From contig CP047880.1 in NCBI GenBank assembly GCA_009911715.1, forward strand, positions 558,001 through 622,000: a DNA stretch of 64,000 nucleotides, read 5' to 3'. The notes beneath the pieces were generated by a model. The model ran no database searches and was not told where the DNA came from. It worked only from the letters and a program-made list of their open reading frames with translations. The position numbers were made by a program, and so were the translations under genes. The DNA is from Methanomassiliicoccaceae archaeon DOK (lineage in GTDB: Archaea > Thermoplasmatota > Thermoplasmata > Methanomassiliicoccales > Methanomethylophilaceae). Shown piece after piece: positions 6,274-17,871 of this stretch; position 1 is the first letter of the stretch, and every line of letters begins with the position of its first letter.

Positions 6274-6555
6274 TCAGACAAGGTCGAGAGTCTGCGCCAT
6301 GGGGATCAGCCAGTCTGGCGTCTCCGCCGAAAGTTCGAGGACGCCGTCCCTTTTGCTCAGCACCAGGCGCGGTCTGTCGCTGTTGTCGAAGACCGCAGCA
6401 TCGTCGGCCAATCTGATGTATTCCGGAAGCAGGGCGAGGACGCGCTCGTGTCTGGAGCGTACCTTGTCCTCAGGCACATCGTGCCCTTCGTTCCGAACCC
6501 TGTCTTCGATGCCCTCGATGCATGTCTCAGGATTTCCGGCACAGACGAACAATAG
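6274..6555 (-). pseudogene. Zeta-type toxin, C-terminal fragment abutting the CRISPR array
   Basis: The frame reads 'LLFVCAGNPETCIEGIEDRV', then 'GHDVPEDKVRSRHERVLALL', then 'DDAAVFDNSDRPRLVL', the typical C-terminal half of zeta-like kinases (hydrophobic strand, G-x-x-S/N-P-E, GHDVPE, YDNS). The frame simply runs into the last CRISPR repeat at 6556, so the N-terminal half with the P-loop is missing. The other half-gene (4670-4891) lies downstream on the same strand. The two pieces are in the wrong order to be one gene split by a single insertion, so they are two remnants or the product of a rearrangement. Confidence 0.6.
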
Positions 6556-9500
6556 GATTGAGAACTCTCGTATCTGACAACACTCTCAAACAGCTCCTCA
6601 GAAGACGCGGATACCGGATGTAATCGAGAACTCTCGTATTTGACAACACTCTCAAACTTTCGGCAAATTATTCCCGAAAATGCACAAGATCGAGAACTCT
6701 CGTATTTGACAACACTCTCAAACCATCCCATCTCTTGATCGCCTCTTCGCGTGGATCGAGAACTCTCGTATTTGACAACACTCTCAAACGGACTGATGGC
6801 TGACGGGCCCGAGGACCTCGATCGAGAACTCTCGTATTTGACAACACTCTCAAACTACCCCATGCGGTTTTACCCGCATTTCCCAGATCGAGAACTCTCG
6901 TATTTACAACACTCTCAAACTCGTGCCGGTGTAGGATTTCTCGATAGTGAGATCGAGAACTCTCGTATTTGACAACACTCTCAAACATGACGACATAGCC
7001 AAGCCTCTCCAGTCCAGATCGAGAACTCTCGTATTTGACAACACTCTCAAACCACCACGATGAGCAGCGGGATGATGTTGATGATCGAGAACTCTCGTAT
7101 TTGACAACACTCTCAAACACGCCGAGTAGTCGTTGATCCTGATCGCGTGATCGAGAACTCTCGTATTTGACAACACTCTCAAACAAGGTTCAGTGTGCAT
7201 GGTGGTTCGACTATGATCGAGAACTCTCGTATTTGACAACACTCTCAAACGCATTAGATTCCAGTGGATTGGGATGTCATGATCGAGAACTCTCGTATTT
7301 GACAACACTCTCAAACCTCACCGTTCCACGTAACGCCCTTGTAGGAGATCGAGAACTCTCGTATTTGACAACACTCTCAAACCCGTTCGCCACCGCTGTC
7401 TGACAGTCTCCAGATCGAGAACTCTCGTATTTGACAACACTCTCAAACAAATGACGGGCATGTATGAGAGCCTGAATGGATCGAGAACTCTCGTATTTGA
7501 CAACACTCTCAAACGCGTTCGTCTGGAACCTGAAGCTGAATGAAGATCGAGAACTCTCGTATTTGACAACACTCTCAAACGATGTCCTGCACGTTCCCCC
7601 AGTCCTGCGACGATCGAGAACTCTCGTATTTGACAACACTCTCAAACACGATCTCGGCGATCAGTTCGGCGTCACTCGATCGAGAACTCTCGTATTTGAC
7701 AACACTCTCAAACCGAACCTCTGCCGGTTGTTCTGATCTCCATAGATCGAGAACTCTCGTATTTGACAACACTCTCAAACCTGATGCACACCCCTAACAT
7801 GCCGTTCTCGGATCGAGAACTCTCGTATTTGACAACACTCTCAAACGGATGATCAATGGGAAGGAGTCCTTTCCCTGATCGAGAACTCTCGTATTTGACA
7901 ACACTCTCAAACAAGACATGATGGTGAAAGGATGCGTTTCGAGATCGAGAACTCTCGTATTTGACAACACTCTCAAACAAAGAAGCAGAACAAAGACGGC
8001 AATCGCCGGATCGAGAACTCTCGTATTTGACAACACTCTCAAACATCATTCTCCGACTCGGACCATCCCAGAAAGATCGAGAACTCTCGTATTTGACAAC
8101 ACTCTCAAACACATACATCTACTTCCACGAGATAAAGAAGGATCGAGAACTCTCGTATTTGACAACACTCTCAAACAAACCAAAGAGGGGATGTTCGTGG
8201 CTTCATGATCGAGAACTCTCGTATTTGACAACACTCTCAAACTGAAGACAGCCTTCGACCTGAACGACGGTAGATCGAGAACTCTCGTATTTGACAACAC
8301 TCTCAAACCAAGCTTGTTCTGCTCTGTGGTCAAGTCATGATCGAGAACTCTCGTATTTGACAACACTCTCAAACGTGACAGGAAGGCATCGGAGTTCATC
8401 ATCCGATCGAGAACTCTCGTATTTGACAACACTCTCAAACATAGAGAGGGAGATGATTTCACACATCCCCGATCGAGAACTCTCGTATTTGACAACACTC
8501 TCAAACCGGCCACCGGTCCTCACGGCCGTCTTCGAAGATCGAGAACTCTCGTATTTGACAACACTCTCAAACCGAAGGCGTTCGGTTTCGTAGAACCTGA
8601 TCGATCGAGAACTCTCGTATTTGACAACACTCTCAAACCGCGCGCACGCGATTAAAACCAGTTATCGTGATCGAGAACTCTCGTATTTGACAACACTCTC
8701 AAACAAAATGGTCGTTTTGAAGCAATGATACAGGGATCGAGAACTCTCGTATTTGACAACACTCTCAAACGTGACCATCTTAACGGCGGTTCCTTCGATG
8801 GATCGAGAACTCTCGTATTTGACAACACTCTCAAACAGGTTATCGTAAGGATGCTCTCGAGATCGTGATCGAGAACTCTCGTATTTGACAACACTCTCAA
8901 ACCCACTTCCAATCTTCACACCACCAAGCGTAGATCGAGAACTCTCGTATTTGACAACACTCTCAAACCAGGCCGTTTTGGATAATCCGGATTTTCTCGA
9001 TCGAGAACTCTCGTATTTGACAACACTCTCAAACATGGTTCGATGTTTACCACGGTCTACAATGGATCGAGAACTCTCGTATTTGACAACACTCTCAAAC
9101 GGTCCGGCGTGTACGTCCCCGTCCCCTCTCGATCGAGAACTCTCGTATTTGACAACACTCTCAAACAGGCCGAGAGGCATCGGATCATCTTCACCGGATC
9201 GAGAACTCTCGTATTTGACAACACTCTCAAACTCGGAATCGACAGCCAGGACGCATTCCAGAGATCGAGAACTCTCGTATTTGACAACACTCTCAAACAG
9301 AACACAAACTGGACAAGATCTAACCGCCGATCGAGAACTCTCGTATTTGACAACACTCTCAAACCTTATGAACGGCTTTTTGGATAACAACCGCGATCGA
9401 GAACTCTCGTATTTGACAACACTCTCAAACGCATGTCATCGTATGCCATCTTACCTCATCGATCGAGAACTCTCGTATTTGACAACACTCTCAAACCATG

Positions 9501-9826
9501 CGCCACGTCTCCCAGATCCGTGGGCAGATCGAGAACTCTCGTATTTGACAACACTCTCAAACAACCTACCTAACCTTGTTCCGATGAAGATTGATCGAGA
9601 ACTCTCGTATTTGACAACACTCTCAAACCACTATCTCGTCGCCCTCTTCATCCCTCTTGATCGAGAACTCTCGTATTTGACAACACTCTCAAACGGAATT
9701 CCTCGGTATCATCAGTCATAAGGAGATCGAGAACTCTCGTATTTGACAACACTCTCAAACACATCTCAGAACCTCCCGACCTTGACGGTCGATCGAGAAC
9801 TCTCGTATTTGACAACACTCTCAAAC
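6556..9826 (-). CRISPR. Type II-A CRISPR array, 50 repeats and 49 spacers
   Basis: Fifty 36-base repeats, mostly at a 66-base period, give 49 spacers: 47 of 30 bases and two of 31 (7581-7611 and 7714-7744). Read on the minus strand the repeat starts GTTTGAGAGTGTTGTC and ends with the palindrome CGAGAGTTCTCG followed by ATC. From about 6951 to 9826 all repeats appear identical. The low-coordinate end is degenerate: the repeat at 6556 has two substitutions, that at 6622 differs at its outer base, and that at 6886 lacks one G. Degeneracy marks the old, leader-distal end, so new spacers enter at 9826 beside csn2. No AT-rich leader separates csn2 from the array. I saw no spacer clearly matching elsewhere in the window, but did not search exhaustively. 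Confidence 0.98.
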
Positions 9827-10510
9827 CTCAAATATGTTGTCACGTGGAAAAAGCACTATCTCGCATTGATCTGAGTCGATTATTACTGCTGGATGAGTGT
9901 GGTCAGTGAATCTGCTGTTCACCATTAATACGGGAGTTTGAAGGTATATGATGTTTCTCAAGAGTTCTCTGTATCTTTCTTCGGACATGTATTCTGAGAT
10001 ATTGACCATTACCACCAGCCTGTATTTTGTGTATTTCCCAACCAAACGTATGAAATCGTAGACCCTTTCATCGAGGTTGTGACTCTCTGAGAACCTGAAC
10101 TGCAAGGCCTTGACTATCTCGGATGCGGTGGGCTCTGTCAATTCGAATTCCGTTTCAATCTCTGCAGCAATATTGCACATGTGGCTTCTCAGGTCGCCCA
10201 GAAGCTCTGAGGTGCGAACATAATAGTTTTCTGAAAGTGCATTGGTAGTCAGTGTCTGTGTGAATCCACTCAGTATCTCCTTTCTATTTGGGTTTGCATC
10301 GAAGGGCCCCATGGAAAGCAATACTGATTTGTGAAACTCATGGATCACTCCGTTGGATGACAGTACAAACCGTCCATCGAATCCCCGAATTTGATCAATC
10401 ATTTCTGACATTAATTTTCCTAGGAAATCAGGGTTTTCGACAATCAGTTGCCAAACAGGCGAGATGTCAAAATCCATGCATTCAGATAGCAAATAATGGC
10501 TAAGTTTCAA
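9821..10510 (-). CDS. csn2: Csn2, type II-A spacer-acquisition protein
   Basis: A 229-residue protein in the canonical fourth position of a type II-A operon. The N-terminus 'MKLSHYLLSECMDFDI' and the segment 'LMSEMIDQIRGFDGRFVLSS' fit the Csn2 family; Csn2 forms a tetrameric ring that binds DNA ends during spacer acquisition. Length fits (about 220 residues in streptococci). The start is TTG 10510, overlapping the cas2 stop as TTGA. The gene end is unusual: the last codons read ATA TTT GAG GTT TGA, and the stop plus the codon before it lie within the first CRISPR repeat (9821-9826). The gene is AT-richer than the host background. Confidence 0.85.
   Translation of the reverse strand: MKLSHYLLSECMDFDISPVWQLIVENPDFLGKLMSEMIDQIRGFDGRFVLSSNGVIHEFHKSVLLSMGPFDANPNRKEILSGFTQTLTTNALSENYYVRTSELLGDLRSHMCNIAAEIETEFELTEPTASEIVKALQFRFSESHNLDERVYDFIRLVGKYTKYRLVVMVNISEYMSEERYRELLRNIIYLQTPVLMVNSRFTDHTHPAVIIDSDQCEIVLFPRDNIFEV
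9827..9833 (-). promoter_or_regulatory. Leader-anchoring motif ATTTGAG inside csn2
   Basis: On the minus strand the seven bases directly before the first repeat are ATTTGAG. The same motif at the leader-repeat junction directs polarised spacer integration in one group of streptococcal type II-A systems (established knowledge). Here it overlaps the codons for the last Ile-Phe-Glu of Csn2, so the leader function appears embedded in coding sequence. I see no promoter that must lie here. Confidence 0.6.
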
Positions 10511-10827
10511 AGTACCACGAACCGGTCTAAGGTATCTAAGATCTCTTTTTGGGATTCGCCGACCAGGAACTCCATTTCCTGGTATTGTCTTTCAGAAACG
10601 GAAAGCAGAATCACGTTGCCTGTTTTCGGACGGTTGTTACGGAGATTCTTCCTGACGGTCTCGGCAGCAGTCGCATTTATGGCTATTTTAGAATACACAG
10701 ATTCCTGAATCATGATGAATCCCTGCATCTGCAGGTATTTCCGGAAACGTGTATACTGACGTCTGTCTTCAGCTGTTTTCACAGGGAGATCGAAGTACAC
10801 TATCAATCTCATCGCTCTTACTCTCAT
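10507..10827 (-). CDS. cas2: Cas2, type II-A
   Basis: A 106-residue Cas2 with the N-terminal 'MRLIVYFDLPVKTAEDRRQY' strand and the type II 'FRKYLQMQGFIMIQESVYSK' segment. Cas2 is the structural dimer that bridges two Cas1 dimers in the spacer integrase. I chose ATG 10827 by alignment with streptococcal Cas2, whose start also precedes the MR-hydrophobic strand by a few residues; ATG 10812 is possible. It overlaps the 3' end of cas1 by 59 bases and its TGA overlaps the TTG start of csn2, so the operon is tightly coupled. Confidence 0.92.
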   Translation of the reverse strand: MRVRAMRLIVYFDLPVKTAEDRRQYTRFRKYLQMQGFIMIQESVYSKIAINATAAETVRKNLRNNRPKTGNVILLSVSERQYQEMEFLVGESQKEILDTLDRFVVL

Positions 10828-11689
10828 AGTGGCAGAACCTAAGCCCGAAAACATCTCTAGAATCCAGGGAATCAACAACACTTTTCACATAAATGCGCAA
10901 GGCGTTTCCGAGATACTGCGTTTTTCCATTCATTTCCACGGTGCGATTCAGGATGGATGCGAGCATCCGTTTTGATTCTGGAGACAATCCCTTATCAGAC
11001 ATGTCTAGTACCATTCTGTCCACAAGTGGGCGAAGGGGCTCCATTAAATCACTCCCCAGATTGTAGTGGTTGGAGGCGTTGTCATGGAACACCCCCAACT
11101 CTGTTGAATATCCTAGAGACACGATTTCACGGTTGACTGCAGACAGTAGGATTGCATATCCGTAGTTCAGCAGGGAGTTAATCTCGCAACTGTTCCTTCT
11201 GGAGAAATCATCACCGAACAACGTGTTGAAATACACCTTGGCTGCATGACCTTCGCGGTTCGTACAATCATTGAACTCCACCGATTCTGCGTATCTGCGA
11301 AGAAGTTCAGCCCTGTCATAATCAAATCTCTCCAGAAGGTCGGCCTGGCAGTTGATTTTCTCCGATACAATCTGTGACCAGATTCTTCCCTTGGTTTCAT
11401 CGTCCCACTAGATCTGTGCTCTCAGTTTCCCCGGAGAGTCATGGCAGCCGTACAACGGCGTCATTTCTGACATGGGATTATGCATCTCATCGCAGAAGAT
11501 CACCTTGATATTTCTTCTGCACAGTTCACACAGCAACATCGACGTGAGGGAGACTGCAGTGCTTTCGATCATGAGCACCGATATCTCGGACAGATGTATC
11601 TTCCGGACATCGGTGCCCCTGATGACCAGATATCCAAGTTTCAGGTCGAGCTTGGAATTACTGGATATGACCACGGTTCTCCAGGTCAT
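10769..11689 (-). CDS. cas1: Cas1 integrase with one in-frame amber codon (candidate pyrrolysine protein)
   Basis: One frame from ATG 11689 to the stop at 10769 encodes a full-length type II-A Cas1 of 306 residues if the TAG at 11410-11408 (codon 94) is read through. Before it stand 'TWRTVVISSNSKLDL' and 'MTPLYGCHDSPGKLRAQI'; after it the same frame continues 'WDDETKGRIWSQIV' and 'NREGHAAKVYFNTLFGDDF'. The join matches streptococcal Cas1, where a Ser precedes the Trp. The presumed active-site residues (Glu in NREGHAA, His in GVFHDN, Glu in DLMEPLRP) all lie after the amber codon, so the 93-residue product would be inactive. In Methanomassiliicoccales TAG encodes pyrrolysine; a real nonsense mutation is the alternative. 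The start is one base after the cas9 stop. Confidence 0.9.
11408..11410 (-). other. In-frame TAG in cas1
   Basis: The codon between Ile93 and Trp95 of Cas1 is TAG on the minus strand. Both sides are in the same frame with no indel, and conserved Cas1 sequence continues without a gap. No other in-frame stop interrupts the 306-codon frame. Confidence 0.9.
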
Positions 11690-11690
11690 G

Positions 11691-14600
11691 TCAGTTTATT
11701 CTCACTTTATTCTCCCAAAGGCCGGAAGGCGACTGGTTGATGATGAACACTTCTGCAGATTTCCTGTCGGGAAGTTTCTTGTTTACCTGAATCCTTCCCG
11801 CGACCGTAGATCCTTTGATTGCTTTGAGATTGGCGTTTGAGTTGTTGCAGTGGAAGGCAAGGAGTATCGAGTTCAACAAAGATGCCTGCTCCAAGCAATC
11901 GAGCTCTTCGAATTCGATCCTACCAGAATGGAGGTTCTCACAGAATGCGGTCATGAACTGCTCATATGGTTTTGAACTGGCCCTCTGCGCCAGATAATCA
12001 TAGAGATCCATGTTCATGTCCTGGGTTATTCCGTAGTATTCTGCTGGTCTGATAACCCTGTCCTTACGATCCGAATCGAATTTGAAGAGGATTTTACAAT
12101 ACTTCATTCTTGTATCATCCATCAGGAGGTTGACGGCGTTGTAGAACAGGATGCTGTCGCCAGTTCTTCCACCTATATGCATCCTGAATCCGTTCCATTC
12201 GAAGAGGGTGTTTAACCTGATTACGGGAATGATTACTTCTACGTCCTTTCCCATTGTCTCGCTGTGATATCTGCGTATGGAATCCGGTTTGTCGATTGCA
12301 CCCAGCATGTAAACCGGCACGACTTCTAAGGACCGGATGGTTCTTTTCTTGTCTTTGTATTCCACAAGGGAATAGCAGGCTCCCGTTGGTTTATTGTACC
12401 CACCATACTTTTCGGTATCCATCCCTCTCTTCCTTTCGATGGCGTTTCCTTTAGCTCTCACAAGGTTGTCATCGAAAAATGCGCCCTTCTTTACAAACGG
12501 TTGTTTGGTGAACAGTATGTTGTTGCGTCTCATATTCTTTAGAACAATCCTCATGCTTCCATTTTCCCCGGGTATCCATGCGGTGTTTCCGCTCCTGGAG
12601 ACTTCGCTATCGTACATCTTGGAAAGATTGTAATGTTCGCCAGAGTCGATAAAATTCCGATAGTCCTTGGTGAATTTGGTGTCATACACGTTACCAACAA
12701 CAATATTCAAGTATGCGTCCTTAGCGTGATGATAGTCGTTTATGGATCTGCATTTGATCATGACGTCCGATCCGCTGTTTTGGCGGAATTCTGACACGAG
12801 ACCTGCTTTGACATACACAATCTCTGTGTCTCCTCCGAAGAGCCTTCCAAGAATCTCTACGGCCCCTTTGACAGATTGGCTAGTCTCCACCAGCTGACGG
12901 CTGATGAATCTGCTGAGTTCGTCCTGGCTGAAATCATCTTTTCTGACTAGGCGTGAATATTTCTCCGAAGTGATGTACTTCTTATCACGCAGGATATCCC
13001 ACATGGGCTTCATGCTCATCTGTACTTCGGGAGCTATGGGGAATCTGTTGCTCTTCTCTGAGTTGCATTTCTTGCATGAAAGGACCAGATTGTTGTGGAT
13101 GCTGTCATCCTTGATTAGTGACTGAGGGTAGATGTGGTCTCTGTCAACGGAGTCTGTGTTTCCAAGTTCCTCTATGTCGATTTTGCGACCACAATACATG
13201 CATCTGCCCAGCTGAGTGTAGTAGAGATACATATTGCGACTTTTGAGGTCTGCATCACTTCTGCTTTCCAGATCTGTTAACCATTGGGAATCCTCCCGAC
13301 AGGCCTTGTACAACTGGATCAACGTGTTTCTCCTGGATTCGGTGCGTTTCTTCTTGGAAGGGTCTATGTTCTGACGTGTCGTCTCCACGAAAACCTTCTT
13401 CGGAGGATGTCCGATGAATTTCATGACATCCTTTGCCACACATACGGTTCTCCATATGCCACGTTTAACAGCAGGAGAGACATACAACCTGTCCACAGAT
13501 CCGTAATCGATGTCTGCATCTGTCGTCATCTCCTGATTAATTTTCTCAATCTGTTTCTCGAATCCATATCTGGATAGTACTTCCATCAGGTTGTACTGGG
13601 TGTTCTCCATGATGTCCAGGATACAGGCATCTCTGCCGAGTTCAGGACTGAATTCATGGAGTCCTGTCAGGAACCTTTTGGACAGCCTCCCCCAGCCTTC
13701 GAATCCGAGTTTGGCAAGCCTTCCTATCTCTTCGTCGGTTAGACGATCGCCGAAATCCGTCTTCAGTTTCCTTCTGATATCTTGGGCTTCTTCGAAAACC
13801 GTTACGATGCGGATAATCTCCTCGCAAAAGTCTCTATCATTTGCCTTCTGTCCGATTATTTCTTTCATAATCGTCAAAGGTCTGAGGGATGTTTTGATGT
13901 CATTATCCATTCCTGTGATCTCTGCATCCTCTCTGCCGTCCAATACTCCGATACTAACAAGATATTTTGATACGGCGTTCTTGGTCACGCGACCTTTTCT
14001 ATCGGGATTTTCGAACAGGTCAGAGACCATGCGTTTTTTGATGTCGACAGGTACACGGTCACCATTGACACGTATGTTGTTCAGTTCATTGTATAATGTG
14101 AAGTACGAATACACGATGGAATTTTTGGGAAGGACCTTCTCTCCAATCATGTATGTGCACATGCTTGTGAGATTCTCCATGAACGCTTCTGCACTTGCTT
14201 CTCTGTCTACCACGTCATCGAAGTTCCAGGGTCTCACCGGGGTGTTGGATTTGCGGACAGCCCATGATCTGTTTACAGCACCCATGGGTGCTGATGTATT
14301 CAGAGGCCCTACATAATATGGAATTCTGAAGCCCTGAATCATGATTACCTTGTCAGCCGTTGTCAGCCCATCCTCGTTCACAGTTTTTAGGAATGGGTAG
14401 AAGCGGGATGCGTTTTCAAGGATCTTGATCATCTCATCTTTATGGATTGTGTACGGGAACACACTGTTAGTCTTTGAGGTCTGTTTAGGCATGAACGTCC
14501 CGTCGGAGAGGCGCGTCATCATATCGTTGTATTCTGGATCGTTTTTGGCTTCGGTTTTTGATAAGACGGACAGGCAGAATTTACAGAATTCCTCCTGATT

Positions 14601-15701
14601 GCAGCTTTTCTCGGGTTTGATCTTTCCACATTTGCCAGAGTAACTGCAGTAGTTACCCATGATAGTGCCACTTTTGAAGACATCCTTGTACATGTCGCTG
14701 GCATACTTACGAACCGCCTTTTTCAGCAGAGCCAGATCCGAGCGGTGCTGCTCATACGATGCAATTTTTGCATACGATATGGAGCGATGTCCTTTCAGAA
14801 GAGATGATAGTACTGACCAGTTGTACACCTGCTTGACGATTCTCAGAGTGTTCCACTGGTCTTCGTCTAAGATGTCTTCGAGTTCTGCCATCTTGTCTTC
14901 GATGGAATTATCGGAGAATGATATGCCGTCAGATTCTATGGAATCGTCCTCAAAGATGTCTGAAGGTTTTACCTTGGCTCCTGCCAGAAGCTCTCCGAGT
15001 TTGCTCTCTGGTTTAGTGGAACAGCCAAGAGCCTCCTTCACGAGTCTTTTGCGGTCTGTCACACGTATGTTGCGATCAGTGAGGATTCCATTCAGAATCT
15101 CATAATCGGAGACATTCAGATCCATGCCGTACTTCATCACATCCTGAATCAGTAAGTCGATGATTTCCTTGAAGTCAGGAATGCCGTCTGAACTGATGCT
15201 ACTGAAGATGAAATGGCCCCTGAATTTGATGATGTGATGTAGAGCAAGGTAAACAAGCCTGATGTCTGGCTTCTCATCTGTTTCCATCAGGAATTTGCGA
15301 AGATGATAGACGGTTGGGAATTTCGAGTGGAATTCTTTGTCTGTGAAGTTCTTGTCGTTAAACAAGCTGTTGCTTTGTTTGATAGTTTTATCTTCAACAT
15401 GCAGTCCGCTCTCGTCCAGTCTCTGGAAGAAAGAGGGGTCTATCTTGCAGACCTCTTCATCAAACAGTTCGCGAAGGAGTGCCACTCTTTGTTTGCGACG
15501 TTCTAGTCTGCGTCTTGCACATCTGTGCATTCTTCTTTCGGCGGCTGTTTTCCCTTCTTCGAAGAGATGTACACCCCACATCGCTTTTCCTCCGCATTCG
15601 AGAATGTTGTACTCCGGGTCTGTGGCTGCCCAACCCAGGGAGCTCGTTCCGATGTCGAGTCCGAGATAGTACTCGTAATCCGCGATATTTAGTCTATTCA
15701 T
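11691..15701 (-). CDS. cas9: Cas9 RNA-guided endonuclease, type II-A
   Basis: A 1336-residue Cas9, close in length to the S. pyogenes enzyme. All nuclease motifs are present: RuvC-I 'YYLGLDIGTSSLGWA' (Asp16), the arginine-rich bridge helix 'RRMHRCARRRLERRKQR', RuvC-II 'KKVFVETTRQN' (Glu773), HNH 'DRDHIYPQS' (His856) with Asn880, and RuvC-III 'NDYHHAKDAYLN' (His992, Asp995). It should cleave both strands of target DNA guided by crRNA and tracrRNA. The HNH region has two CxxC pairs (Cys834/837 and Cys876/879), a probable zinc site absent from SpCas9. The start ATG 15701 has a TATA box ~25 bases upstream, implying a leaderless mRNA. AT-richer than flanking genes, consistent with transfer from Firmicutes-like bacteria (inference). 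Confidence 0.98.
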   Translation of the reverse strand: MNRLNIADYEYYLGLDIGTSSLGWAATDPEYNILECGGKAMWGVHLFEEGKTAAERRMHRCARRRLERRKQRVALLRELFDEEVCKIDPSFFQRLDESGLHVEDKTIKQSNSLFNDKNFTDKEFHSKFPTVYHLRKFLMETDEKPDIRLVYLALHHIIKFRGHFIFSSISSDGIPDFKEIIDLLIQDVMKYGMDLNVSDYEILNGILTDRNIRVTDRKRLVKEALGCSTKPESKLGELLAGAKVKPSDIFEDDSIESDGISFSDNSIEDKMAELEDILDEDQWNTLRIVKQVYNWSVLSSLLKGHRSISYAKIASYEQHRSDLALLKKAVRKYASDMYKDVFKSGTIMGNYCSYSGKCGKIKPEKSCNQEEFCKFCLSVLSKTEAKNDPEYNDMMTRLSDGTFMPKQTSKTNSVFPYTIHKDEMIKILENASRFYPFLKTVNEDGLTTADKVIMIQGFRIPYYVGPLNTSAPMGAVNRSWAVRKSNTPVRPWNFDDVVDREASAEAFMENLTSMCTYMIGEKVLPKNSIVYSYFTLYNELNNIRVNGDRVPVDIKKRMVSDLFENPDRKGRVTKNAVSKYLVSIGVLDGREDAEITGMDNDIKTSLRPLTIMKEIIGQKANDRDFCEEIIRIVTVFEEAQDIRRKLKTDFGDRLTDEEIGRLAKLGFEGWGRLSKRFLTGLHEFSPELGRDACILDIMENTQYNLMEVLSRYGFEKQIEKINQEMTTDADIDYGSVDRLYVSPAVKRGIWRTVCVAKDVMKFIGHPPKKVFVETTRQNIDPSKKKRTESRRNTLIQLYKACREDSQWLTDLESRSDADLKSRNMYLYYTQLGRCMYCGRKIDIEELGNTDSVDRDHIYPQSLIKDDSIHNNLVLSCKKCNSEKSNRFPIAPEVQMSMKPMWDILRDKKYITSEKYSRLVRKDDFSQDELSRFISRQLVETSQSVKGAVEILGRLFGGDTEIVYVKAGLVSEFRQNSGSDVMIKCRSINDYHHAKDAYLNIVVGNVYDTKFTKDYRNFIDSGEHYNLSKMYDSEVSRSGNTAWIPGENGSMRIVLKNMRRNNILFTKQPFVKKGAFFDDNLVRAKGNAIERKRGMDTEKYGGYNKPTGACYSLVEYKDKKRTIRSLEVVPVYMLGAIDKPDSIRRYHSETMGKDVEVIIPVIRLNTLFEWNGFRMHIGGRTGDSILFYNAVNLLMDDTRMKYCKILFKFDSDRKDRVIRPAEYYGITQDMNMDLYDYLAQRASSKPYEQFMTAFCENLHSGRIEFEELDCLEQASLLNSILLAFHCNNSNANLKAIKGSTVAGRIQVNKKLPDRKSAEVFIINQSPSGLWENKVRIN

Positions 15702-15720
15702 AATAGAGTAATTTGCTGAC

Positions 15721-15732
15721 TTATTTATATAG
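15721..15732 (-). promoter_or_regulatory. TATA box for the cas9 operon
   Basis: On the minus strand CTATATAAATAA is centred about 26 bases upstream of the cas9 ATG, the normal archaeal TATA-to-start distance, so transcription should begin at or next to the start codon. It would drive cas9-cas1-cas2-csn2 and perhaps the array. Confidence 0.7.
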
Positions 15733-15737
15733 TGAAG

Positions 15738-15747
15738 TTATAAATAA
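15738..15747 (+). promoter_or_regulatory. TATA box for tracrRNA
   Basis: TTATAAATAA on the plus strand predicts transcription from about 15765, some 45 bases before the anti-repeat. It lies back-to-back with the cas9 TATA box, so the two divergent promoters nearly touch and could be co-regulated. A second AT-rich stretch (15770-15785) might give a shorter transcript. Confidence 0.5.
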
Positions 15748-15794
15748 TTAGAATCAAGGACCTAAGTACAAATAATTAATTTTATCTATTATTG

Positions 15795-15895
15795 CATACA
15801 ATACAAGTTCGACAACACGAGTTCAAATAAGGCATAACCGGAATCACCCGAAAGGGTCCCGCAATTGGCGGGGATCTCGTTTGTCAATATTTTTT
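15795..15895 (+). ncRNA. tracrRNA of the type II-A system
   Basis: The anti-repeat is GACAACAC (15811-15818), GAGT (15819-15822), TCAAAT (15823-15828). Against the repeat start this gives an 8-bp upper stem (GUGUUGUC:GACAACAC), a bulge of GA opposite GAGU, and a 6-bp lower stem (GUUUGA:UCAAAU, one G-U pair). This equals the S. pyogenes layout (6-bp lower stem, 2/4-nt bulge). Next comes AAGGCATAACCG (15829-15840), nexus-like, then hairpin ACCC-GAAA-GGGT (15846-15857), hairpin CCCGC-AATTG-GCGGG (15858-15872) and a six-T run at 15890-15895 as terminator. The 5' end is approximate. It lies between cas9 and the nuclease-helicase gene and is transcribed away from cas9. Confidence 0.88.
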
Positions 15896-15975: not shown

Positions 15976-17871
15976 ATGATCATCTACAGCGACACCAAAT
16001 CAGGTTTTATCGATGACATAGTCAACGGAGTCCTGGACGAGAAGCTGGAGTCGCTGATGACGGAGCGTTTCGGCAAGGGCACCTCGGATGGCGAGCTCCG
16101 CGCCTGGCGCAATTCCCTGACGTACATGGGCAACATAATCGGGGCCTCATCGATTCCCGCGGATTCGGGCATCGCCATCGAATACGGCATCCCGTACACA
16201 TCGAAGCGCGTCGACCTCATCGTCACAGGGCTGAACGAGTCGGGAGGGAACTCCGCCGTCATCGTGGAGCTGAAGCAGTGGGCCTCTGCGGAGGCGGTTC
16301 CGGGCAAGGACGGGGTGGTCCGCACACTCGTCGGAGGCGGCATCCACGAGGTCGCGCATCCGTCGTACCAGGCATGGTCGTACGCGGAGGCGATCGAGGA
16401 CTTCAACGCCGATGTCCGCGACAGGGGCGTTGTGCTCGCCCCCTGCGCGTGTCTCCACAACTACAATCCGCCCACGCCCGACCCGCTGGCATCAGACGCA
16501 TACGCGGAGTACACGTCGAGAGCTCCGATGTTCACAAAGCACCAGGGGTCCGACCTGAAGGGCTTTCTCGAGAGGTTCATCAGGAAGGGGGACGGTGGCG
16601 AGACGATATTCATATTGGACCGGGGGAGGCTCAAGCCTTCCAAGTCCCTACAGGATGTTCTCTCATCCATGATGCGCGGCAACAGGGAGTTCACGCTCCT
16701 GGACACGCAGAAGGTGGTCTACGAGGAGGTCCTCCACCAGGTCAGGGCTATCGCCCGCGGAGGAGGGAAGAGGACGATCGTCATCCGCGGCGGCCCAGGG
16801 ACGGGGAAGACCGTTCTCGCCGTCAACCTACTGTCCGACATAACCTCGCTCGGGATGTCCTCCCTGTACGTGTCCAAGAACGCCGCGCCCAGGAACGTCT
16901 ACAGCGTGCGGCTCAAGGGACAGAAGAGGGGACGCAGCCGTGTCGACAAGCTGTTCGTTGGTTCCGGGAGCTTCGTCAACGCGGAGGCGGATGTGTTCGA
17001 CGTTCTCCTGGCGGACGAGGCCCACAGGCTCAACGAGAGGAGCGGTCTCTACCAGAACCTCGGTGAGAACCAGGTGATGGAGATCATCCGGGCGTCGAAG
17101 CTGTCCGTCTTCTTCATCGACGAGGACCAGAGGGTGACCCTCAGGGACATCGGAACGGTGGACGAGATCAGGAGGTACGCGAGGCTGCTCGGTTCCACGG
17201 TGACGGAGATGGAGCTCGACTCCCAGTTCAGATGCTCGGGATCGGACGGATACCTCTCATGGCTCGACAGCGTTCTGCAGATCCGCGAGACCGCCAACCT
17301 GGATCTCGAGGATCCCGGGTTCGCGTACGACTTCAGGGTCTACGACGATCCGAACGAGATGAGGGCCGACATAGAGGAGAGGAACGCCGCGAACAACAGG
17401 TCCAGGCTGGTCGCCGGATACTGCTGGAACTGGATCTCCAAGGGGAAGGACGATTCGGATGTGCACGACGTGACCATCCCGGAGCACGGGTTTGGCATGA
17501 GCTGGAACCTCGGAAGCACCGAGACCTGGGCCATAGACGAGGGGTCGATCAACGAGATCGGCTGCATACATACCTGCCAGGGGCTGGAGTTCGATTATGT
17601 CGGGGTGATAATCGGCGACGACCTGAGATACGAGGACGGGAAGGTGGTCACGGACGCATCCAGGAGGGCGAAGACCGACCAGTCGCTGAAGGGCCTGAGG
17701 AAGCGGTACCCCGACGAGGACGAGGCTGGCAGGGTGGCGGACAGGATCATCAAGAACACGTACAAGGTGCTGATGTCCAGGGGGATGAAGGGCTGCTACG
17801 TCTACTGCACCGATCCCGGCATGAGGGAGCACCTGAGGAAGAGGTCGATGACCGATCGGAACCTGTTTTGA
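15976..17871 (+). CDS. PD-(D/E)XK nuclease-DUF2075 helicase fusion
   Basis: A 631-residue protein. The N-terminal ~170 residues hold a nuclease-like pattern, Asp in 'KRVDLIVTG' and Glu/Lys in 'AVIVELKQW'. The C-terminal part is a superfamily-1-like helicase of the DUF2075 (Schlafen-type AAA) class: Walker A 'IRGGPGTGKTVLAVNLL', Walker B 'LLADEAHRL', 'LDSQFRCSGSDGYLSWLDSV' and the late motif 'IHTCQGLEFDYVGVI'. DUF2075 proteins recur in defence islands, but this exact combination has no function I can name. It lies next to the tracrRNA and, unlike the cas genes, is GC-rich like the host. A role in degrading foreign DNA or RNA is inference. The start ATG 15976 gives the full N-terminal domain. 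Confidence 0.75.
   Translation: MIIYSDTKSGFIDDIVNGVLDEKLESLMTERFGKGTSDGELRAWRNSLTYMGNIIGASSIPADSGIAIEYGIPYTSKRVDLIVTGLNESGGNSAVIVELKQWASAEAVPGKDGVVRTLVGGGIHEVAHPSYQAWSYAEAIEDFNADVRDRGVVLAPCACLHNYNPPTPDPLASDAYAEYTSRAPMFTKHQGSDLKGFLERFIRKGDGGETIFILDRGRLKPSKSLQDVLSSMMRGNREFTLLDTQKVVYEEVLHQVRAIARGGGKRTIVIRGGPGTGKTVLAVNLLSDITSLGMSSLYVSKNAAPRNVYSVRLKGQKRGRSRVDKLFVGSGSFVNAEADVFDVLLADEAHRLNERSGLYQNLGENQVMEIIRASKLSVFFIDEDQRVTLRDIGTVDEIRRYARLLGSTVTEMELDSQFRCSGSDGYLSWLDSVLQIRETANLDLEDPGFAYDFRVYDDPNEMRADIEERNAANNRSRLVAGYCWNWISKGKDDSDVHDVTIPEHGFGMSWNLGSTETWAIDEGSINEIGCIHTCQGLEFDYVGVIIGDDLRYEDGKVVTDASRRAKTDQSLKGLRKRYPDEDEAGRVADRIIKNTYKVLMSRGMKGCYVYCTDPGMREHLRKRSMTDRNLF

Follow-up and report, generated by a model that had tools for sequence, protein, structure and literature searches.

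Organization of the Type II-A Locus

The stretch of DNA considered here (the window) comprises 64,000 nucleotides, bases 558001–622000 of contig CP047880.1, the single 1,889,135-bp contig that represents the 99.8% complete genome of Methanomassiliicoccaceae archaeon DOK. It carries a genuine and complete type II-A CRISPR-Cas9 system (CRISPR, clustered regularly interspaced short palindromic repeats), which is hereby confirmed in a methanogen of the family Methanomethylophilaceae, order Methanomassiliicoccales. The system is encoded on the minus strand, and its order in the direction of transcription is cas9, cas1, cas2 and csn2, followed by the CRISPR array. The first gene, cas9 (11691–15701, −), encodes a protein of 1336 amino acids that matches TIGR01865 with 902 bits (cut-off 100; E = 5e-271) and contains the Pfam Cas9_REC, PI and HNH domains. 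Its residues D16, E773, H856, H992 and D995, which were matched by motif to D10, E762, H840, H983 and D986 of SpCas9, are unchanged in all six archaeal Cas9s compared; that is, the catalytic residues of both the RuvC and the HNH domain are kept. A TATA-like sequence, CACTATATAAATAAG, and no Shine-Dalgarno site is found upstream of the cas9 ATG. TATA-box scores of the regions preceding cas9 did not tell archaeal loci from bacterial ones (p = 0.63), and no claim is therefore drawn from them.

The cas1 gene (10769–11689, −) gives a product of 306 amino acids when an in-frame TAG is read through; this product matches TIGR03639, as well as the solved structure 5xvn in the PDB (E = 4e-68). The start of cas2 (10507–10812, −; 101 amino acids; TIGR01573; Cas2_II, 8e-38) overlaps the end of cas1. 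The last gene, csn2 (9821–10510, −), encodes 229 amino acids and is recognized by TIGR01866 (101 bits, cut-off 35; 6e-29) and by the padloc model of Csn2 (1e-44). On the other side of cas9, a trans-activating CRISPR RNA (tracrRNA) with an anti-repeat, a nexus, two hairpins and a U-tract lies on the plus strand at about 15804–15895.

The array (6556–9826, −) consists of 50 repeats of 36 nt, GTTTGAGAGTGTTGTCAAATACGAGAGTTCTCGATC, and 49 spacers, all of which are distinct (47 of 30 nt and two of 31 nt). The distal repeat is degenerate, and 47 of the 50 repeats are identical to the consensus. The last codon and the stop of csn2 fall within repeat 1 (...ACATATTTGAG followed directly by GTTTGAGAG...), so that the leader-end motif ATTTGAG (9827–9833, −), which stands immediately 5' of repeat 1, lies inside the csn2 frame. 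The same arrangement was found in one other archaeal locus (genome G117); in the remaining archaeal loci, csn2 is followed by a short leader that carries an identical or near-identical motif. The ATTTGAG leader end is reported to be essential for adaptation in CRISPR1 of S. thermophilus and is conserved in type II-A (PMC5382924). Since the csn2 stop and the motif overlap the leader-repeat junction (9821–9833), every spacer insertion would regenerate the stop codon of csn2. In another carrier of the system, G086, two degenerate repeats 65 bp apart lie past the tracrRNA, with cas9 between them and the main array (stretch L037, 8202–8292); the pair is apparently the remnant of a mini-array.

The system belongs to type II by virtue of a Cas9 with RuvC and HNH domains and a tracrRNA whose anti-repeat fits the repeat. 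Its place in subtype II-A follows from csn2 after cas9-cas1-cas2 and from the ATTTGAG leader end before a GTTT repeat. Cas9 falls far short of the type II-D model (Cas9d, NF049971: 76 bits against a cut-off of 375). The initial annotation, made from the sequence of the window, had proposed the canonical II-A gene set with a 50-repeat array and a tracrRNA, intact nuclease residues in Cas9 and mostly identical repeats; all of these were upheld by the family models, the array count, the tracrRNA and the five invariant positions. Its reading of cas9, cas2 and csn2 stands as well, but the in-frame TAG in cas1 had gone unreported.

The Amber Codon of cas1 and Its Probable Decoding by the Host

The cas1 frame is interrupted once, by a TAG at 11410–11408 (−) that corresponds to residue 94 (...LRAQI*WDDETK...). 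Under the standard code the gene is therefore not continuous; it becomes so only when TAG is read as pyrrolysine. Homology to Cas1 extends across the codon, with TIGR03639 covering residues 3–272 as a single match of 301 bits. The column lies between a Q and a W that are both invariant, and is occupied by Q, R, C, S and K in the five other archaeal II-A Cas1 proteins; the nearest relative has CAA at this codon. The two best-matching solved structures of Firmicutes Cas1 have A. Residue 94 is a tolerant site. An AlphaFold model of Cas1 built from six sequences was too poor (predicted local distance difference test score of 42) and was not used.

The host possesses the means to decode the codon. 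Its pylS scores 270 bits with the family model (cut-off 178) and lacks the N-terminal domain, the short form that has been described for Methanomassiliicoccales (PMC3941956). Directly upstream of pylS lies pylT, a tRNA-like sequence with a CUA anticodon, and frames resembling pylB, pylC and pylD lie downstream; these were recognized from sequence and position. A tRNA-Pyl was not called in the host by ARAGORN or Rfam, and its identification relies on our reading of the sequence. Two mtmB genes and one mtbB gene for methyltransferases contain one internal TAG apiece. In stretches amounting to 522 kb (28%) of the host genome, about 6 of the 356 called genes had TAG as their true stop, against about 9% with TAA. 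These counts come from a replacement gene caller, as the many TAG-ended shadow frames of the first caller were spurious. In a control, the frames that follow TGA or TAA looked like separate genes, and the stretch from the stop to the next start scored zero or less; after TAG, this stretch was positive wherever it was long enough to be scored, and the downstream frames did not resemble separate genes.

Read-through also seems to extend beyond the methyltransferases. Pfam domains span an internal TAG in an ABC transporter (L019:17386-19176) and in a CO dehydrogenase/prismane protein (L028:11879-13459), and a nucleoside phosphorylase-type protein (L012:8639-10165) has its expected C-terminal domain after such a codon. 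All three are candidate pyrrolysine proteins. In M. alvus, TAG accounts for 1.6% of stops, and pyrrolysine has been predicted in a type V-A Cas1 (Borrel 2014, PMC4153887). Read-through of cas1 would be the outcome expected from the way in which this host treats TAG. Because the host has the pyl genes, seldom stops at TAG and appears to read through it elsewhere, Cas1 is most likely made in full, residue 94 being pyrrolysine; this substitution is probably neutral and tolerated.

Alternatively, cas1 may be a recent nonsense pseudogene, in which case interference would be kept and spacer acquisition lost. The codon is private to the window genome: none of the five other archaeal II-A Cas1s carries TAG, nor do any of the four type V-A Cas1s examined, so conservation offers no argument against a recent mutation. 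Moreover, about a third of stops arising by chance would be TAG. Against this stand the decoding of TAG by the host and its tolerance of TAG within other conserved genes, the variability of the site among relatives, and the state of the locus itself. No second lesion was found in cas1, the invariant residues of Cas1 are all present in both halves, and the leader-proximal repeats are uniform and free of decay. A pseudogene is on balance unlikely, though it deserves some weight. The TAG makes a functional adaptation module less certain but leaves the II-A assignment unaffected, since the latter rests on csn2 and Cas9.

A more speculative idea starts from a full-length Cas1 with pyrrolysine. The supply of pyrrolysine, which is tied to methylamine use, might gate spacer acquisition, such that without an active pyl system Cas1 would not be completed and the array would not grow. 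We consider this doubtful. If true, expansion of the genetic code would act as a switch on CRISPR adaptation, and the pyrrolysine predicted in the unrelated type V-A Cas1 of M. alvus would reflect convergence, not chance.

tracrRNA and crRNA Maturation

Each of the eight archaeal loci examined has an anti-repeat upstream of cas9, on the plus strand, followed by a nexus and two hairpins. The tracrRNA was located by motif and covariation, as an energy scan for repeat duplexes was swamped by the GC-rich DNA. With the hairpin arms aligned by hand, 32 of 32 cells pair in hairpin 1, with compensatory changes (the shuffled mean was 24.4, and the fraction of shuffles reaching 32 was 0.0002), and the same count was obtained for hairpin 2 (fraction 0.017). 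Furthermore, the repeat:anti-repeat duplexes fit best within their own genomes (rank 5 of 720 permutations). Taken together, the tracrRNA appears to be under selection.

It has been stated that archaea lack RNase III (Makarova et al. 2025, PMC12669027). The host encodes an RNase III-domain protein of about 160 amino acids (C1:205365-205862; PF14622, 91 bits), whose sequence contains the catalytic signature, ERLEFLGD with a D-x2-E downstream of it (...ADSFEAL). Of the 147 genomes of the order, 78 have a homologue, some with Cas9 and some lacking it; among them are the II-A carriers G086, G112, G117, G124 and G048. The gene is thus a resident one, and its presence could have prepared the lineage for the uptake of Cas9. 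We infer that the protein processes the CRISPR RNA (crRNA). Two observations speak against such a role: its score with TIGR02191 (101 bits) is below the NCBI cut-off of 166 for bacterial RNase III, and no homologue was found in the II-A carrier G039, whose genome is 86% complete. A domain search gave no match to a double-stranded RNA-binding domain in the host protein, and no homologue was found in G031, a genome with a solitary Cas9-like protein.

Insertion Site and Base Composition

The right edge of the island is formed by an SLFN-g3 DNA/RNA helicase gene (15976–17871, +), which together with the genes downstream of it is colinear in a congener. In the congener G097, which lacks Cas9, the helicase is 84% identical and is followed by the same downstream genes. 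At the position where the window has the II-A system, G097 has a type I-E system with Cas7e, Cas5e, Cas6e, Cas1e and an array (L179, G097:C41, 1058-6915), which marks the site as one where CRISPR modules are exchanged. At the distal end of the array, an open reading frame of 92 amino acids (6274–6552, −) begins 4 bp past the last repeat and corresponds to a portion of a longer, 223-amino-acid frame in G087; it was probably truncated by the island.

The GC content of the cas genes in the window is 45.8%, compared with 61.1% in the flanks. In six archaeal hosts, the cas module has 37.9–49.1% GC against 49.4–65.0% in the flanks, and is about 9–18 points richer in AT in each. AT-richness thus goes with the module in each host, and the low GC cannot be used to date the transfer.

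None of the 25 archaeal cas genes ends in TAG, compared with 46 of 221 bacterial ones (p = 0.006) and 30 of 56 bacterial cas1 genes; a Shine-Dalgarno-like site precedes cas9 in two of eight archaeal and 65 of 71 bacterial loci (p = 8e-5), although neither comparison takes relatedness into account. Judging from these signals, the archaeal II-A loci have adapted to their hosts by losing bacterial expression signals.

Distribution and Origin

Matches to Cas9 were found in eight of the 147 genomes of Methanomassiliicoccales, all of them in Methanomethylophilaceae. The complete set of cas9-cas1-cas2-csn2 and array is present in six (the window host G000, G086, G117, G112, G039 and G124), and in G048 the II-A locus is cut by the edge of a contig. 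The eighth genome, G031 (L043, G031:C1, 7586-10399, +), has a solo Cas9-like protein of 938 amino acids that keeps REC and HNH, lacks RuvC-I and ends before RuvC-III. No cas1, array or tracrRNA was found near it, and it may be a relic or an HNH-only Cas9 put to another use. A further II-A Cas9 labelled as archaeal came from a termite-gut bin assigned to 'Methanimicrococcus' (Methanosarcinales; contig WRDC01000056.1, L079). It groups with the Cas9s of Methanomethylophilaceae, which points to either a transfer between archaeal orders or mis-binning.

The archaeal copies are about 42–58% identical to the window Cas9, and the nearest bacterial Cas9s, from Clostridia and relatives, about 42% (scan of 84,980 named genomes). 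The bacterial sequences for the tree were found with patterns taken from archaeal Cas9s and hence represent the nearest bacterial Cas9s that carry those motifs. In this tree, the archaeal Cas9s, including that of the 'Methanimicrococcus' bin, form a single clade among Bacillota with no bacterial member (Shimodaira-Hasegawa-like approximate likelihood ratio test, SH-aLRT, 100 by a quick method; branch length 0.24). An archaeal clade was also recovered with Cas1 (support 97/90). Most simply, an archaeal ancestor acquired the II-A system once, from Firmicutes-like bacteria. A recent import is not supported; the family would have acquired the system some time ago.

Several independent transfers from bacteria would account for the patchy distribution, for the swapping of modules seen in G097 and for the modest identity among the archaeal copies. 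Against such a history stand one supported clade that contains every archaeal Cas9 and no bacterial sequence, and a Cas1 tree that agrees with it; repeated transfer is improbable, though worth keeping in mind. Transfer between archaea is compatible with a single acquisition. That bacterial DNA was joined to an archaeal contig in assembly or binning, as the sharp GC drop at both island edges and the bacterial-type genes might suggest, is very improbable given the single 1.889-Mb contig, the separate archaeal relatives that share the system in exclusive Cas9 and Cas1 clades, and archaeal loci without TAG stops and with few Shine-Dalgarno sites.

The archaeal setting claimed in the initial annotation, for which a chimeric contig was the named threat, therefore holds: the system lies on one contig, recurs in relatives and, in at least one of these (L039), is flanked by clearly archaeal genes, and the helicase next to it is colinear, together with the genes downstream, in a congener. 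The search of related genomes and the Cas9 tree that it called for gave the recurrence and the archaeal clade described above. It had also taken the AT-rich island as support for a Firmicutes-like donor; the AT-richness and the Firmicutes-like origin stand, but the low GC is no sign of a recent transfer. The locus is not unique, as the family has six complete loci along with a fragment and a relic.

Proposed Mechanism

The locus is a complete II-A Cas9 system adapted to archaea, and its Cas1 most likely contains pyrrolysine. An ancestor in the archaeal lineage would have gained the system from Firmicutes-like bacteria, most simply once, after which it would have diversified among archaea and shed its bacterial expression signals. 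In the host, amber codon 94 would be read as pyrrolysine by means of pylT, pylS and pylBCD to give full-length Cas1. As full-length Cas1 needs this reading, so does spacer capture. Cas9, Cas1, Cas2 and Csn2 would then take up spacers at the ATTTGAG/GTTTGAG junction. Through the anti-repeat, which co-evolves with the repeat, the crRNA would pair with the tracrRNA; the host RNase III-domain protein would cut this duplex, and Cas9 would cut matching DNA. We regard this account as a whole, with acquisition most simply once, diversification in archaea and completion of Cas1 through pyrrolysine, as probable.

Some results count against it. No match was found in IMG/VR with eight exact spacer patterns of 20–22 nt, nor for 25 spacers in a phage set, and a comparison of spacers with the retrieved loci gave only short, chance-level matches. 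With no spacer target found, activity of the system, including the recent activity proposed in the initial annotation, is something that we infer. In addition, the deep branches among the bacterial groups are weak, and neither a placement within Bacillota nor a particular donor can be read from the tree.

Comparison with Known Systems

Type II is, to our knowledge, generally regarded as a bacterial type, and the archaeal cases are small II-D Cas9s in nanoarchaea. A literature search, outside which subscription papers and preprints fell, found no description of II-A in Methanomassiliicoccales. A family of full-size II-A systems in gut methanogens shows that archaea can become a home for the classic Cas9 pathway, and the RNase III-domain protein of this lineage makes the processing of tracrRNA:crRNA in archaea a testable question. 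Cas9s native to methanogens would be useful for methanogen genetics, while the amber codon of cas1 ties genetic code expansion to immunity.

The closest parallels are the II-A systems of Bacillota (S. pyogenes, E. faecalis and Lachnospiraceae), which share the order cas9-cas1-cas2-csn2, the 36-nt repeat of the GTTTGAGAG type, the 30-nt spacers, the ATTTGAG leader end and a tracrRNA with a nexus and two hairpins. The window system differs from them in its archaeal host, its archaeal-only clade, the amber codon of cas1 and the leader motif inside csn2; the archaeal loci in general differ in the lack of TAG stops and of most Shine-Dalgarno sites. A neutral pyrrolysine substitution in an archaeal enzyme is known from Thg1 of Methanosarcina. 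There too, the amber codon occupies a tolerant position in an enzyme that is not a methyltransferase, whereas the one in the window lies in the CRISPR integrase of a horizontally acquired system.

The type V-A (PreFran) system of 'Ca. Methanomethylophilus alvus', from the same archaeal family, likewise has a class 2 Cas1 with predicted pyrrolysine (PMC4153887), but it is of a different CRISPR type. What the literature examined reports from archaea is II-D in DPANN, a scattering of other class 2 systems and, rarely, type II. The II-D systems of DPANN also combine an archaeal Cas9 with a tracrRNA (PMC12669027, PMC9755519); in contrast to the window Cas9, their Cas9d is small and deep-branching and occurs in nanoarchaea that are said to lack RNase III.

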